Assembly: GCA_027858815.1 (NCBI GenBank)
Contig: JAQIBZ010000283.1
Span: 1 to 34,533, forward strand
DNA: 34,533 nt
Source: Desulfobacteraceae bacterium
GTDB lineage: Bacteria; Desulfobacterota; Desulfobacteria; Desulfobacterales; Desulfosalsimonadaceae
Direction: 5' to 3'
Shown here: positions 24,213 to 31,758 of the stretch, piece after piece
Position numbering within the stretch: the stretch's first letter is position 1
Layout: each line of letters opens with the position of its first letter
Made by a program: the position numbers and the translations under genes
Notes under the pieces: generated by a model
What the model was told of the DNA's origin: nothing
What the model saw: the letters and a program-made list of their open reading frames with translations, nothing else
The model's database searches: none

Positions 24213-25787
24213 TCAAATGCGAAAGCTTTCAGATTGGCCGCCATATTTTTTTCTTAAAACCGGTTTTTCAATTTTCCCCGTTGGATTCCTTGGGACTTCA
24301 TCAAAAATGAATTTTTTGGGTCGTTTGTATCGTGGCAGTGAAGAGCAGAATTCGACCAGTTCTTCGCTGGAGACATTCCGCCCTGTTTTGATTTTAACCA
24401 CTGCCGCAACAATTTCGCCCAACCGGGTGCTTGGAAGTCCGATTACAGCCACATCCTGAATCAGGGGATGCGCCTGTAAAAAATCCTCTATTTCTACCGG
24501 GTAGATATTTTCACCGCCAGTGATGATGACATCTTTTTTTCTATCCACCAGCCAGATAAATCCGTCCGCATCCTCCTTCGCCACATCGCCGGTGCAGAGC
24601 CACCCATCCGTGAGCACCTCCCGGGTGCCCTCCGGATTTTTGTAGTACTCTTTCATAATGCCCGGTCCTTTGACCATGAGTTCTCCCGGCATCTCCGGGC
24701 CTAACGGGTTGAGCTTGTCATCCACAATCTTATATTCCCAATCAAAACCCGGTCGTCCAATGGCACCGACCTTGTGCATGTTTTCTATCCCCAGATGGAC
24801 GCAGCCAGGTCCGGTGGATTCGGTGAGGCCGTAATTGGTGTCGTACAAATGATGCGGAAATATCTTCTTCCATTCCTGAATCAGGCTTTTGGGAACAGGC
24901 TGAGCACCGATATGCATGAGTCGCCATTGGTCCAGTTCATAATCGGAAAGTCGGATGTCTCGATTTTCGATGGCAAAGAGGATATCCAGTGCCCAGGGAA
25001 CCAGAAGCCAGACAATGGTGGCCTTTTCTTCGGATACAGCTTCGAGGATGTATCGGGGCTCGATTCCTTTTAAAATAACCGCTTTTGCTCCCACGATAAA
25101 GTTTCCAAACCAATGCATCTTCGCTCCGGTGTGGTAAAGCGGCGGGATACAGACAAAATTATCCTCATGGGTTTGGTTATGGTGGCGATTTTCGGTAATC
25201 GCAGAAGCTTCCAGCGTTCGATGCGTATGAAGCACGGCCTTGGGATCACCCGTGGTTCCGGAAGTAAAGTAAAGCGCTGCGTCATCGGTAATACAGATAT
25301 CCACTTTTGGATCATCTGATTTTTGATCTGCGGTAACGGTATCAAAGGATTCTGCATAGTCCGGTGTTTTTTCAGAAGGTCCGGTGAAAATATACGAAGA
25401 GACGCCGGGCTCGAGGTCCGGCCGGATGGCATCTATGCGTTCGATAAACTCCTCACCAAAAATGATCATCTTCGCCTCGGCAACCTGAGTGCAGTAACTG
25501 ATTGTTCCGGCCTCAAAACGAAAATTTAAGGGTACTGCCAGGGCACCGGTTCGTAATATTCCGAAATAGATGGGAAGCCAGTTCAGACAGTTGGTCATGA
25601 GCTGTACCACCTTGTCACCTTTTTTGATGTTCCTTTCAATTAATCCCCGGGCAGTTTGGTTTGCCAGGGCGTCAAACCGGGCCCAGGTGATTTCCGTACG
25701 CTGTTCCAGGGCGGGAATCCGTTCCACAAGGGCCGTTTCATTGCCGTACATTCGGGCGTTTCTTGCCAGTATCTCTGTAATGAGCAT
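24213..25787 (-). CDS. AMP-binding acyl-CoA synthetase / CoA ligase
   Basis: YFTSGTTGDPKAVLHTHRT, GWLCTGDVAKEDADGFIWLVDRKKDVIITGGENIYPVEIE, PRNPTGKIEKPVLRKKY. Confidence 0.93.
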   Translation of the reverse strand: MLITEILARNARMYGNETALVERIPALEQRTEITWARFDALANQTARGLIERNIKKGDKVVQLMTNCLNWLPIYFGILRTGALAVPLNFRFEAGTISYCTQVAEAKMIIFGEEFIERIDAIRPDLEPGVSSYIFTGPSEKTPDYAESFDTVTADQKSDDPKVDICITDDAALYFTSGTTGDPKAVLHTHRTLEASAITENRHHNQTHEDNFVCIPPLYHTGAKMHWFGNFIVGAKAVILKGIEPRYILEAVSEEKATIVWLLVPWALDILFAIENRDIRLSDYELDQWRLMHIGAQPVPKSLIQEWKKIFPHHLYDTNYGLTESTGPGCVHLGIENMHKVGAIGRPGFDWEYKIVDDKLNPLGPEMPGELMVKGPGIMKEYYKNPEGTREVLTDGWLCTGDVAKEDADGFIWLVDRKKDVIITGGENIYPVEIEDFLQAHPLIQDVAVIGLPSTRLGEIVAAVVKIKTGRNVSSEELVEFCSSLPRYKRPKKFIFDEVPRNPTGKIEKPVLRKKYGGQSESFRI

Positions 25788-25877: not shown

Positions 25878-26291
25878 CTATAAATCGCCGGTCATGATCG
25901 ATATCCCGTTGCTTGCCAGGATGTCGAGACCCTTTTCCAAATTGTCGTACCGAAGAACGAGGATATTTTTTTCCTGGCTGGTAAAGGCATACATATACTC
26001 AATATTGATGTCAGCCTCGCGAAACAGCATCATGATTCGGTTGATGTCCTGTGGATTTTCTTTCACCTCCACAATCGCCACCGGGGTCTTTTTTGCTGCA
26101 AAACCCTGGTCTTTTAAGACGGATAGTGCACGTTCTGTTTCTTTCACGATCAGGTGCAATATGCCGAAATCAGCTGTATCGGTCAAGACCATGGCCGTGA
26201 TTGGAATTCCGGACTCGGAAAGGGCTGATGTGATGCGTGAGAGTCTTCCCGGCCGGTTTTCGAGAAATATCGTAATTTGTTCAATGGCCAT
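25878..26291 (-). CDS. Tandem ACT-domain protein
   Basis: ITIFLENRPGRLSRITSALSESGIPITAM and second ACT-like half VEVKENPQDINRIMMLFREADINIEYMYAF. Confidence 0.88.
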   Translation of the reverse strand: MAIEQITIFLENRPGRLSRITSALSESGIPITAMVLTDTADFGILHLIVKETERALSVLKDQGFAAKKTPVAIVEVKENPQDINRIMMLFREADINIEYMYAFTSQEKNILVLRYDNLEKGLDILASNGISIMTGDL

Positions 26292-26311: not shown

Positions 26312-27301
26312 TTAAAAGGGTGTCTTGTACCCGTTAAAACAAACCAATCCTGTTTTTTCAATCCATTTCTTGATCTGATTCATGTGTTCTTCACTGGGCG
26401 GTTTCATGTCCTTAAACCTGTACTCCTGGTCCATTTGCCGGTATTTGGATTCGCCGAGGCGGTGGAAGGGTAAAATATTGATGGCTTCCAGGCCGCATGA
26501 ACGAACAAATTCGGCTGTCTCTGTAATATTTTCTTTGGAATCATTGATTCCCGGTATGATGGGAATGCGGATGATATAAAAACCGTTCCAATCAGGATCC
26601 TCGGCCAAAAGCCGGGTGTTTTTAAGAATCAGACGATTGTCCACACCGGTAAGTTCACGGTGCCGGTCCGGGTTCATGTGTTTCAAATCGCTAAACACCC
26701 ACTCCACATATTTCATGGCTTCCATAAAATATTTAGTGGGAACGCAGGTGGTGGTCTCCACGGCTGTATGGATATACTGCTCCCTGCATTTTTTTAAAAT
26801 TGAGAGCATAAACGCCTGCTGAAAAAAAGGTTCCCCGCCGCTGAACGTCACGCCGCCATGAGCGCCCCAGAACTGGCGATCCCTTTTAAATATTTCCATC
26901 AGATCATCTATCGTGTAATATTTTGCTGTGAGGGAGAGTGCCTCATGCAGACAGACGTCCACGCATTCATGGGTGTTGCATTCGTCACAAAATTTCCGAT
27001 CGTGAAGTAAGGTTTTGCCGTCATCGGCAATGGAAATCGCCTTATGGGGGCATGCCTTTATGCATTCTCCGCAGCACACACATTTGGATTTTTTCCACAT
27101 AATCACCGGAACCCGCGCAAGGCCTTCCGGGTTGCAGCACCATATGCAGTGGAGCGGGCAGCCGCTTAAAAATACGGTTGTTCTGGTACCCGGGCCGTCG
27201 TGAACCGAATGCGCCTGGATATCAAAAATCAGGGCCCGCAGCTCCTGTGCAATTTGTTCTTTTGGCGATGTGGCATCCTGGCCTGAAAAAGATTTCAGCA
27301 T
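26312..27301 (-). CDS. hpdA: Glycyl-radical enzyme activase (radical SAM), HpdA-like
   Basis: SGCPLHCIWCCNPEG (CxxxCxxC); ferredoxin-type clusters CVCCGECIKACP and CDECNTHECVDVC; GGVTFSGGEPFFQ. Confidence 0.9.
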   Translation of the reverse strand: MLKSFSGQDATSPKEQIAQELRALIFDIQAHSVHDGPGTRTTVFLSGCPLHCIWCCNPEGLARVPVIMWKKSKCVCCGECIKACPHKAISIADDGKTLLHDRKFCDECNTHECVDVCLHEALSLTAKYYTIDDLMEIFKRDRQFWGAHGGVTFSGGEPFFQQAFMLSILKKCREQYIHTAVETTTCVPTKYFMEAMKYVEWVFSDLKHMNPDRHRELTGVDNRLILKNTRLLAEDPDWNGFYIIRIPIIPGINDSKENITETAEFVRSCGLEAINILPFHRLGESKYRQMDQEYRFKDMKPPSEEHMNQIKKWIEKTGLVCFNGYKTPF

Positions 27302-27327: not shown

Positions 27328-28659
27328 TTAAACGTATGCTTCCCTATGACTTGTCATCGCATGCTGTTTTTTGGCAACCAGAGGCAAACTGCAGGCAAAC
27401 AAAATGGATACCACAAAAGAACCCATAGCAAAATAGATGGAGTAGCTATAGCTGCCGGAGATATCCTTGAGATAGCCGCCTATAAAAGAGCCGGTAAACG
27501 GGCCAATTCCCATTACAATGAGGGTGGCCAACCCCCAGATTTTGCCAAGGGTTTTTCTGCCATATACAGCGCCGGTGTATCCCACAATACCGCCGGGAAC
27601 AATAGCCCAGTAAATTGCAAAAATAAAACAGGCTATATAGGCATTAATAAGGGAGGTTCCGCTTTGAAGGAGAAACAAACAGGCTAAAACCCCGGTGAAG
27701 GGGCCGATAATGAGCATAATCTTTCGGCCCATTGCCTCATTGTCCACCTTCGACACCACTTTGTCTGCAATAACGCCCATTATGGGCATGCTGAAGATAC
27801 CGATGAGACCGATCACCGCATATATCCCTGTGGCATTGGAAAGTGGCATACCGATATCTTCTTTCCAAAAGCTGACGACCTGAGTCCAGATAAGGAATTC
27901 ACCCATCATTGCAGTTAAAAAAGTGAGAATGGCTCCCCAGATGGCGTAACTGGAGTAGGCCTCCTTCACTTCCCATTCGTATTCAGCGTTTTCTGAACCC
28001 CCTGTACCGGGGATTTCGCCAAAGGGTTCCATGCCGTAAATTTCCGGGCGCCTTCTGGATACCAATACAGCCAGTACCAAAGCCGCAAAGATAATTACTG
28101 ATAAAATGACCATGGCACCCCTCCAGGCATCAGGGCCTCCGCCTTCCAGGCTGTGTTTTGTCACATAGGCCAGGACAAACTGGGCCATGGGTGCCCCGGC
28201 AAATGCCAGGCCCCACATAGTGGCATAAGATTTACCCACATACCATTTGCGAACCGAGACTGTCGAGGTTACCCAGAGCATACCAGTGGCGATTCCGGCC
28301 AGCAGTCCGAAGGTAAAAAGGTAGGCGAAATAAGTATTGATCATACTGGTTAAGAAAAATCCCAGGCCGCCGAACACTGCGGCAATCGCATACACGGGCC
28401 GGGTGCCCCACTTGTCCAATATCATTCCGGCAAAAAAGGCGGTTACTGCATAGAACAGCATCATCAGGGAATATCCCAGGGTCACCTGGGCCTGGGTCCA
28501 GCCAAGATCTGCGCTCATGGGGACCTTGAGAATAGCAAATGTTGCCCGATATCCGAAGAGACAAAATACTGCCAGCCAGGAGGCCAAAACCACCCGCTTG
28601 CCGTAGAAACTTCTTTTTTTTTCATTTATATCGTTCATTGGGTACCTCCAAATTTTCAA
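27328..28659 (-). CDS. Major facilitator superfamily transporter
   Basis: ~12 hydrophobic segments; AGMILDKWGTRPVY MFS motif A-like loop; positioned between small subunit and activase genes. Confidence 0.92.
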   Translation of the reverse strand: MKIWRYPMNDINEKKRSFYGKRVVLASWLAVFCLFGYRATFAILKVPMSADLGWTQAQVTLGYSLMMLFYAVTAFFAGMILDKWGTRPVYAIAAVFGGLGFFLTSMINTYFAYLFTFGLLAGIATGMLWVTSTVSVRKWYVGKSYATMWGLAFAGAPMAQFVLAYVTKHSLEGGGPDAWRGAMVILSVIIFAALVLAVLVSRRRPEIYGMEPFGEIPGTGGSENAEYEWEVKEAYSSYAIWGAILTFLTAMMGEFLIWTQVVSFWKEDIGMPLSNATGIYAVIGLIGIFSMPIMGVIADKVVSKVDNEAMGRKIMLIIGPFTGVLACLFLLQSGTSLINAYIACFIFAIYWAIVPGGIVGYTGAVYGRKTLGKIWGLATLIVMGIGPFTGSFIGGYLKDISGSYSYSIYFAMGSFVVSILFACSLPLVAKKQHAMTSHREAYV

Positions 28660-28768: not shown

Positions 28769-29029
28769 TCACGCTACAAACATTTCGCAGGTGACAGCAC
28801 ACATATCTGCATAGGCCATGAACTTGGGTTCATGCATAGATGCATTGCAGACCCCTGTAAATTCGTCATCAGGCTTGTAATTCTGGCAGATCCGGCACTT
28901 GGGCAAGGGCAGATACCCTTCCGGAACCGGTGCATCGGCGCTGACGATTTTTTTGGTGATCAGGTCAATGCCTTTCCGGACATCAATGGGTGCATAGTCG
29001 AGAGCATTTCTGTAGTTAAGCTGTTGCAT
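28769..29029 (-). CDS. hpdC: 4-hydroxyphenylacetate decarboxylase small subunit-like Fe-S protein
   Basis: 86 aa immediately downstream of the glycyl radical enzyme; Cys at 45, 48, 61, 77, 81. Confidence 0.85.
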   Translation of the reverse strand: MQQLNYRNALDYAPIDVRKGIDLITKKIVSADAPVPEGYLPLPKCRICQNYKPDDEFTGVCNASMHEPKFMAYADMCAVTCEMFVA

Positions 29030-29043
29030 GGTAAATTCCTCCT

Positions 29044-31758
29044 TTATACTGATTCATATTCAGTTCTTGCGATGAGTTCATCCTGTACTGCTTTGCCGAT
29101 TTCTACCCAGTACTGGGTAAAACCCGCAACCCGGACCATGAGATCCCGATAATTTTGCGGATTTTTCTGTGCATCCTTTAAGACTTTTGAATCCACAATA
29201 TTAAACTGCACATGGAATCCGCCTTTACGCATATAGCCGCGAATCAGGTCAAGCAGCTTTCTGGATCCTTCCAGGCCCTGAATGGCTGACGGGTGAATCT
29301 TGATGTTCAACTGAGAGTTCTGGGACATGCTGTGGTCCCAGATAGAGGCGGAATTCATCAGGGCAAAGGGTCCGTTTTTGTCTGTTCCCGGGTAGGCGGA
29401 CATGGAGGCATCGGCAAACGTTGTGCCGGCCAGCCTTCCGTCTGCCGTTGCGATGGCAGCAGACCCCATGGCACCATGGGTGGAAACTGAAATCTGGCAG
29501 GGATACATCGTGTGGCCGTAAAGGGACTCGTAGTTGGCACAATCCGGGCAGAAGAAATTTTCCCATTCCAACAGTATATTGTCCGCATAAGAATCATCGT
29601 TTCCATACTTGGGCGCTTGAATGGCTGCAAAATGGAGTTTATCCCATTCCCCTTTATCCAATTCGCCTTTTTCCTGATCTGCAAGAGAGAACGAGTCAAT
29701 ATCATGGGAATCCTTGAACCCGAAGTTGGCTTTCATGGCTTCTTTCAGGGTATCCAGGGAAACTGTTTTGTCATCAAATACCTGTTTTTTAAGGGCTGCC
29801 AGGCTGTTTACCACCGTTATGGTTCCGCAGCTTTCCACGTTAAAAGTCGCATTGTAACGATACCCCAGTTCATTGATCAAATGTCCTGTGTCCAGGCAGT
29901 CCGGTTTTAACATGGAGGTAATAATTGCCATATTGTTCTTACGCCAGATATCATGCTGGATATTGTTGCAGGTGGCCAGGCAATCGCAGGTTTCCTGCCA
30001 GTAAAGTTTGAACTGATCCCAAATCTCTTCGTATGTTTCAAACTCACGGTCATGAGCTGCAAAAACCTGTTCACCGGTCTGCTGATCGGTTCCGTTGAAC
30101 AGAGTAAGCTCCAAAATCTTGGGCATGGAAATGAAGTGGACGCCTACGCTGGTGGGCTGGCCGCATCCGCCGGGGATCATATATTCCTTGCCGTTCAAGT
30201 GGAGTGTCTTCCATGTGCAGGCAGATGTTTCAAGGCACCCGCCAATGGCCCACGCCCTGGCATCCTCAATATCCATTCCTTCAGGACCATATTGTTTCCG
30301 CAAAAAATCCATCGCAACGCGGTTACTCATAAATGCCGGGTATCCGGCACCGGTCTTGATTACTTCCATGGCTTTCATCAGGAAATCTTCCGGTGTTTTT
30401 TCATCATAAAGAAGTGCCAGCGTGGACTGAGGCATGGCATTGGTCGCGCCAGCCTCTAAAACAAGATATTCTAATCGGTTGACCGCTGTGGCACCTTTTT
30501 CATTCAATCCACCGATAGAAACGGTGTTGAAAGTGTTTCCGGAAAGGACACCGCCGACGACACCAACAGAGGCAAAACAGTCAATGGAAGTCTTCACCAC
30601 ACGGTCCAGTTCGAGAAGCTCCAACACTTCATCCTCAGTGATTCTACCGGCCGCAATATCTTGCTCAAAATATGGATAGAGGACCTGACCGATTCGGCCC
30701 GGGGACATTCCGGAAATTGCATCCTCATTCAGGACTGCAAGGTGAAGTGTTTCGATCATCTGGAATGCTTCGATAAAGGTTCGGGGCGGATGATGGGCGA
30801 TCCATTCCAGGCGCTCTGCAATATCTGCGTATTCTTTTTTCTGTATTTCATCTGTTTCCTGATTAACTAGCCGTTTTGCCTCTTTGGCATAGTTCAATAT
30901 CCAGGCCTGGATGCCCTGACATGCAAGAATGACCGCCTCATAGTTATACAGCCGGTTTATTCCCACCATACCGTCTCCGTTTGCCCGGCCGGCAACCTTG
31001 TCCTTCATCTCCTTCGCAATGGCAATAATTCCGTCGAATCCGTATTCAAGGGGATAGTAGTAGTTGATTACTTCACGTCCTTGCGGCAGGGTAAAACCGG
31101 AATCGAACATGCAGACGATATTTCTCATGATCTTTTCTTTGGTTTTGTATTCCGGTACCATCTTCTCATATTTGTGGCCCAAATCGTCCACTGATTTTCC
31201 TTCCCAGATGCGGGCCAGTTTCAACAAGGCCGGAATTTCTTTTTGCCGCATACCAAATTTGCCGGCAATTGAGATGACCTTGTCAAAACTCTTGGTGACG
31301 TTGCCGCCCCCCTGACCAAATTTTGAGTGAAGATCAACACTCAAGGCGCCTCTTTCCATTGCTTCCTTATAAAATTCGTCTTCTTTGGCCAGGTAAAATC
31401 CTTCAGACAGCCAGGGCATGGGGAAAGAACCTCGAAAAAAACGGGCCTTGTGCATGACGAGAAGTTCACCCGGGAAGATCACCGGCGACAGATGGGAAAA
31501 GGCTGCTTTCAGTGCCATGGCACGCCGCACCACCGGAACCTCACTATCATGGAGCATATATTCTCTGGTATACCAATACGGGAATTCGTTTTCTGTAGAG
31601 GAGAGGGTGTCCATGAAAATTTCTTTTAGTTTTTCGACCCTGGGATGGCTGTTTCTTTTAATTTCCCGGTCGATCATCTCGGCTGGCGCCTCTCCACCGG
31701 ATTGTAAGTCCATGGTCATTCCGGCGTCTTCCAGTACTTCTTTAAGTTTCTTAGCCAT
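29044..31758 (-). CDS. hpdB: Glycyl radical enzyme, 4-hydroxyphenylacetate decarboxylase large subunit-like
   Basis: Glycyl loop RVAGFTQYWVEIGKAVQDELIARTEYESV (G879); AIGGCLE (C508/E510); S349, F410, H541 and E642 sit at +5 from recalled C. scatologenes HPAD residues S344/F405/H536/E637. Confidence 0.87.
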   Translation of the reverse strand: MAKKLKEVLEDAGMTMDLQSGGEAPAEMIDREIKRNSHPRVEKLKEIFMDTLSSTENEFPYWYTREYMLHDSEVPVVRRAMALKAAFSHLSPVIFPGELLVMHKARFFRGSFPMPWLSEGFYLAKEDEFYKEAMERGALSVDLHSKFGQGGGNVTKSFDKVISIAGKFGMRQKEIPALLKLARIWEGKSVDDLGHKYEKMVPEYKTKEKIMRNIVCMFDSGFTLPQGREVINYYYPLEYGFDGIIAIAKEMKDKVAGRANGDGMVGINRLYNYEAVILACQGIQAWILNYAKEAKRLVNQETDEIQKKEYADIAERLEWIAHHPPRTFIEAFQMIETLHLAVLNEDAISGMSPGRIGQVLYPYFEQDIAAGRITEDEVLELLELDRVVKTSIDCFASVGVVGGVLSGNTFNTVSIGGLNEKGATAVNRLEYLVLEAGATNAMPQSTLALLYDEKTPEDFLMKAMEVIKTGAGYPAFMSNRVAMDFLRKQYGPEGMDIEDARAWAIGGCLETSACTWKTLHLNGKEYMIPGGCGQPTSVGVHFISMPKILELTLFNGTDQQTGEQVFAAHDREFETYEEIWDQFKLYWQETCDCLATCNNIQHDIWRKNNMAIITSMLKPDCLDTGHLINELGYRYNATFNVESCGTITVVNSLAALKKQVFDDKTVSLDTLKEAMKANFGFKDSHDIDSFSLADQEKGELDKGEWDKLHFAAIQAPKYGNDDSYADNILLEWENFFCPDCANYESLYGHTMYPCQISVSTHGAMGSAAIATADGRLAGTTFADASMSAYPGTDKNGPFALMNSASIWDHSMSQNSQLNIKIHPSAIQGLEGSRKLLDLIRGYMRKGGFHVQFNIVDSKVLKDAQKNPQNYRDLMVRVAGFTQYWVEIGKAVQDELIARTEYESV

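Follow-up and report, generated by a model that had tools for sequence, protein, structure and literature searches.

A 4-hydroxyphenylacetate decarboxylase small subunit that has lost all four ligands of its N-terminal cluster site and probably carries a single [4Fe-4S] cluster

The hpdC gene on the minus strand of the window (the whole stretch of 34,533 nucleotides of Desulfobacteraceae DNA that was analysed; hpdC at 28769..29029) encodes an 86-aa small (gamma) subunit of 4-hydroxyphenylacetate decarboxylase (HPAD) in which all four ligands of the N-terminal iron–sulfur cluster are lost and those of the C-terminal cluster are kept. The HPAD small subunit has been described as a protein with two [4Fe-4S] clusters, important for soluble expression (PMC12358834). 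Judging from the sequence, the window quite probably encodes a functional, naturally one-cluster form of this subunit, which would bind one C-terminal [4Fe-4S] cluster and act mainly as a structural partner of HpdB. If this is so, HPADs in general probably do not need two clusters.

The first-pass annotation of this DNA had proposed that 28769..29029 encodes an HpdC-like small subunit, and our results agree with that. The hpdC product scored 64.7 bits on NF033716 (HPAD small subunit; cut-off 50), it exceeded the cut-off of PF18524 (HPIP_like, match at residues 43-83), its best match in PDB was the HPAD small subunit 2y8n_B (phmmer, E 5e-4), and the gene directly follows a full-length hpdB. The score for the N-terminal domain PF18671 was slightly below the cut-off (24.4 versus 25). 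An incorrect start codon hiding Cys residues had been named as a point to check, and the annotated start was upheld. The hpdC ATG lies 14 nucleotides from the end of hpdB, and the gap between the two genes (29030..29043, minus strand) contains a well-placed ribosome-binding site, GGAGG, 8 nucleotides upstream of the ATG. The only in-frame extension to the upstream stop codon, ISIKEEFT, has neither Cys nor His. As the in-frame extension is devoid of Cys in the window and in 11 homologous loci of the one-cluster type, a hidden hpdC start codon was rejected. A second HpdC or HPIP-like small subunit was not found in the window's genome, and no Rfam families were found in the window.

The N-terminal half of the window's HpdC (residues 1-44, 28898..29029) has no Cys and no His residues. 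In the alignment of 32 homologs, its Y6, A9, D22 and P36 occupy the columns of H3, C6, C19 and C36 of the Clostridium scatologenes-type protein, which we take to be the N-terminal cluster ligands from prior knowledge and their co-conservation, and not from structure coordinates. Thus, where two-cluster HPADs have His or Cys and three further Cys residues, the window's protein has none of them. The central claim of the first-pass annotation, the loss of the N-terminal [4Fe-4S] ligands, was clearly borne out by the homolog alignment that it had suggested as a check: all four ligand columns lack ligand residues in the window, and neither a hidden start, nor alternative N-terminal Cys or His ligands, nor a second small subunit could make up for them. 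Its list of substituting residues was correct only for P36; Q3, Y6 and K19 came from unaligned numbering and give way to Y6, A9 and D22, which does not affect the conclusion.

The picture at the C-terminal HiPIP-like half (28772..28897, minus strand) was different. C45, C48, C61 and C81 were invariant in 32 of the 32 aligned homologs, in one- and two-cluster proteins alike. These four cysteines had been noticed earlier together with C77, which turned out to be an extra, non-conserved residue. The fourth C-terminal ligand named in that annotation, C78, has to be corrected, as the conserved column corresponds to C80 in the 2y8n numbering (C81 in the window).

The genes around hpdC are those of an HPAD system. 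Read along the minus strand (31758 to 24213), the order is hpdB, hpdC, an MFS transporter gene, hpdA, and the genes of an ACT-domain protein and a CoA ligase. The 904-aa product of hpdB (29044..31758), the large glycyl radical subunit, reached 1580 bits on NF033715 (cut-off 1150) and an E value of 4e-302 with 2y8n_A. Since both hpdB and hpdC exceed the curated cut-offs, they encode HPAD subunits by NCBI criteria. The catalytic set of HPAD comprises the radical Gly, the thiyl Cys, Glu1, Glu2 and His, and the window's HpdB keeps Cys508, Glu510, His541, Glu642 and Gly879. The enzyme is predicted to decarboxylate 4-hydroxyphenylacetate to p-cresol. Indoleacetate decarboxylase was rejected as an identity of HpdB, which scored 685 bits versus the NF033718 cut-off of 1100 and is accompanied by a small subunit; a BSS/MAS-type X-succinate synthase was rejected as well (1008 bits with 2y8n_A versus 176 with MasD and 169 with TutD).

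The MFS transporter gene (27328..28659, minus strand, PF07690) has a related counterpart after hpdC in many homologous loci. The hpdA gene (26312..27301, minus strand), which is located 1.5 kb downstream of hpdC, encodes a radical SAM activase that keeps both of its ferredoxin-type clusters; its best NCBIfam match was NF033717 (HPAD activase), at 386.5 bits slightly below the cut-off of 420. All eight activase cluster cysteines (C74/77/80/84 and C105/108/113/117) were present in 14 of 14 one-cluster genomes. In two-cluster genomes, seven of the eight were present in 21 of 21 and C77 in 18 of 21. Owing to this retention, a general loss of clusters across the operon was rejected. The genes of the ACT-domain-pair protein (25878..26291, PF19571) and the AMP-binding CoA ligase (24213..25787), both downstream of hpdA on the same strand, possibly serve arylacetate-CoA formation for the supply or use of 4-hydroxyphenylacetate.

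Three further glycyl radical enzymes besides HPAD were seen in the window's genome. One glycyl radical enzyme of this genome (L071, G000:C301:15562-15870 with flanks) is very close to the 1-methylalkylsuccinate synthase MasD (1004 bits over 622 aa with 9o8u_A), and the host may therefore activate alkanes. HPAD was found in none of the 10 same-genus genomes searched, while genomes elsewhere in the order do have it; this distribution could stem from horizontal gain, from patchy loss or from contamination, which is reported as 6.2%.

To place the window's protein among its relatives, we collected 41 hpdC sequences from 21 loci of an hpdB scan and from family searches in sampled genome sets (the window's class and order, the classes of Clostridium uliginosum and Tractidigestivibacter, and the order of Tannerella forsythia); this census is a sample weighted to the window's relatives and not an exhaustive one. 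All four N-terminal ligands were present in 25 of the 41 proteins and lost in 16 (none of four, or only C6, kept), that is, in 15 of the 40 homologs other than the window's. The proteins with the loss came from Desulfobacterium and other members of the window's order, from Tannerella and other Bacteroidales, from the Neisseriaceae Crenobacter and Craterilacuibacter, from Atopobium/Lancefieldella, which keep C6 alone, and from one genome of the class of Tractidigestivibacter (locus L064). Except for C6 of Atopobium, the four ligands were kept together or lost together, and the loss was inherited through a 12-member group that includes the window. As the pattern is nearly all-or-none across the 41 homologs and is inherited in this group, the loss is not a matter of chance. 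The one-cluster proteins of Tannerella and Atopobium scored near 100 bits on NF033716, and would thus already carry the annotation of HPAD small subunit; all the cluster-less homologs that were scored passed this model, indicating that the N-terminal ligand set defines the two-cluster type and not the whole family.

The census also disclosed some variants. In three hpdC genes on separate branches (L004:8718-8987, L054:1189-1443 and L056:4152-4406), which were counted among the 25 four-ligand sequences, CxxC replaces HxxC, giving an all-Cys N-terminal site. In one genome (G894, loci L058 and L077), the gene of the HPAD large subunit adjoins a dnaA-like gene instead of hpdC, and the match to the hpdC family lies on another contig. 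Another locus (L053:1501-4404, G522:C16) encodes a large subunit of the HPAD type (1313 bits) and is immediately followed by an hpdC of the two-cluster kind, but the large subunit has the substitutions Glu505 to Ala, Glu637 to Ile, His536 to Leu and Ser344 to Cys; this is probably an HPAD-family glycyl radical enzyme with a different substrate.

The distribution of the loss bears on the question of whether the window's small subunit is simply degenerating, with the operon in decay and the ligands lost under relaxed selection. We regard this as extremely unlikely. The absence of the N-terminal ligands and the slightly too low PF18671 score would fit decay, but the same loss is common to relatives with intact reading frames across Thermodesulfobacteriota, Bacteroidota and Pseudomonadota. 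Moreover, the C-terminal ligands, the residues D16, K19, G20 and D32 of HpdC and the gene order are conserved, and HpdB and HpdA are intact.

When 43 large subunits were placed on a maximum-likelihood tree, at least three changes, in three separate places, were needed to account for the cluster-less rows, and well-supported branches force this minimum. A single origin of the loss was rejected, as the tree with all of them in one clade was 1465 log units worse (p-AU 1.4e-70). One of the three changes could instead be a gain, which still leaves a minimum of two losses however the tree is rooted; the simplest reading is that the N-terminal site of a two-cluster ancestor was lost three times. The exclusion of the two-cluster L004 from the 12-member group of the window was weakly supported (69/31). 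Enzymes of opposite cluster state could be closely related: the large subunits of Atopobium and Olsenella are 87% identical, and that of L064 is 80-82% identical to those of the two loci L067 and L070. The HPAD catalytic residues were retained in every one-cluster row. A scan for hpdB columns that track the loss revealed no convincing compensating column, at the low power that three loss events allow, and no gained Cys among the columns that change with the loss.

Within HpdC itself, one substitution accompanied the loss throughout. At the position of C19, each of the 16 cluster-less proteins has Asp, encoded by GAT or GAC in 12 of 12 checked, two changes away from a Cys codon. This Asp precedes a probable turn (D-L-I-T-K-K in the window, D-R-R-T-G-K in Tannerella) in an N-terminal half where D16 and G20 are invariant and K19 and D32 nearly so. 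It is a reasonable proposal that the Asp caps the turn where the cluster once tied the chain. The Foldseek search with the AlphaFold2 model of the window's HpdC gave 2y8n_B as the top match (E 5e-5), and the model of a two-cluster control matched it better (E 9e-10, TM 0.6). However, the pLDDT of the N-terminal half of the window's model is only about 40-60, and this low confidence allows nothing firm to be said on the metal-free fold.

A constant Asp could also be read as a sign that a cluster is still held at the N-terminal site by unusual ligands, be it Asp22, another carboxylate, or residues that HpdB or a partner protein would provide. Asp can ligate iron–sulfur clusters in a few proteins, and the Atopobium members, which keep C6, have one additional Cys as well as His residues nearby. 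Nevertheless, this seems very unlikely for the window, where D22 is the only carboxylate among the former ligand positions of a half devoid of Cys and His, where the hpdB scan points to no new cysteine donor, and where the genome search disclosed no other protein of the HpdC or HPIP type.

Returning to the one-cluster reading, we infer that a single [4Fe-4S] cluster would be bound in the C-terminal HiPIP-like half by C45, C48, C61 and C81, and that HpdC would pack on HpdB, so that the large subunit stays soluble and assembles correctly. The N-terminal half would keep its backbone framework, held without metal, with the Asp at the former Cys19, just before the turn, capping this turn. HpdA would activate the enzyme for the usual glycyl/thiyl radical route, by which the activated one-cluster HPAD would convert 4-hydroxyphenylacetate to p-cresol. 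In the simplest reading, the essential structural function lies with the C-terminal cluster domain, and the N-terminal cluster is a module that can be lost; the latter is probably dispensable for the reaction, as relatives have lost the same cluster with the rest of the enzyme intact. On balance, we favor the view that there are two natural forms of HpdC and that the N-terminal site is a dispensable module, lost on about three occasions, with Asp taking the place of Cys19 on each. The earlier suggestion that such a protein challenges the need for two clusters can be maintained as an interpretation, because the ligands were lost repeatedly in systems whose catalytic and activase residues are intact.

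A different role for the N-terminal cluster, regulatory or redox, e.g., in the quenching of the glycyl radical, is conceivable for two-cluster HPADs, if the one-cluster lineages have shifted this role to the remaining cluster or, owing to their lifestyle, can dispense with it. A function in glycyl radical reduction has been proposed, without confirmation, for the HPAD small subunit (PMC12358834), a similar idea was put forward for the BSS beta subunit (PMC12590467), and the all-or-none behavior of the ligands suggests that selection acts on the site as a whole where it is kept. However, the losing lineages have no obvious common lifestyle, and a loss without visible change elsewhere counts against a role essential to the chemistry, though a conditional role would be consistent with it. 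We consider this role possible, yet rather doubtful. It is compatible with the anatomy of a one-cluster HpdC, but contradicts the view that the N-terminal cluster is purely dispensable.

These results bear on the function of iron–sulfur clusters in accessory subunits of glycyl radical enzymes. That one of the two HPAD clusters has been lost repeatedly in nature, in enzymes that keep the residues connected with catalysis, speaks against an essential relay of two clusters. The role of the cluster can be tested directly on matched enzymes of the one- and two-cluster kinds, and the Atopobium and Olsenella pair, if its states are as they appear, is a ready-made experiment. Published alignments include the large subunit of the T. 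forsythia enzyme (PMC6181972), and the missing ligands in this species may already be known to specialists. In that case, the repeated independent loss and the constant Cys-to-Asp signature are what is new here.

Among known systems, HpdBC of C. scatologenes (2y8n/2yaj) is the best PDB match of both window chains and of the predicted fold. It shares with the window the gene pair, the 86-aa length of the small subunit, the C-terminal ligands and the catalytic residues, but its HpdC has H3, C6, C19 and C36 and two clusters, whereas these N-terminal ligands are all absent from the window's protein. The HPADs of Tannerella forsythia and other Bacteroidales (L005-L007, L023) are in the same part of the tree as the window's, with large subunits 74% identical to it, the same order hpdB-hpdC-MFS-hpdA, which is also found in Crenobacter, and small subunits that likewise lack every N-terminal ligand. 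They belong, however, to another phylum, and have Ser and Asp at two of the lost positions where the window has Ala and Pro. The accessory beta and gamma subunits of BSS and MASS sit on the surface of their glycyl radical enzymes and have a HiPIP-like fold with only one [4Fe-4S] cluster (PMC12358834; PMC12590467), an arrangement like that predicted for the window's HpdC, and MASS beta (9o8u_B) was the second Foldseek match of the window's HpdC (rmsd 1.7 over 59 columns, E = 0.5). In contrast to the window's enzyme, these X-succinate synthases have a large subunit of another family and catalyze another reaction, and the window's small subunit keeps the HPAD-specific N-terminal half in a remodelled form.
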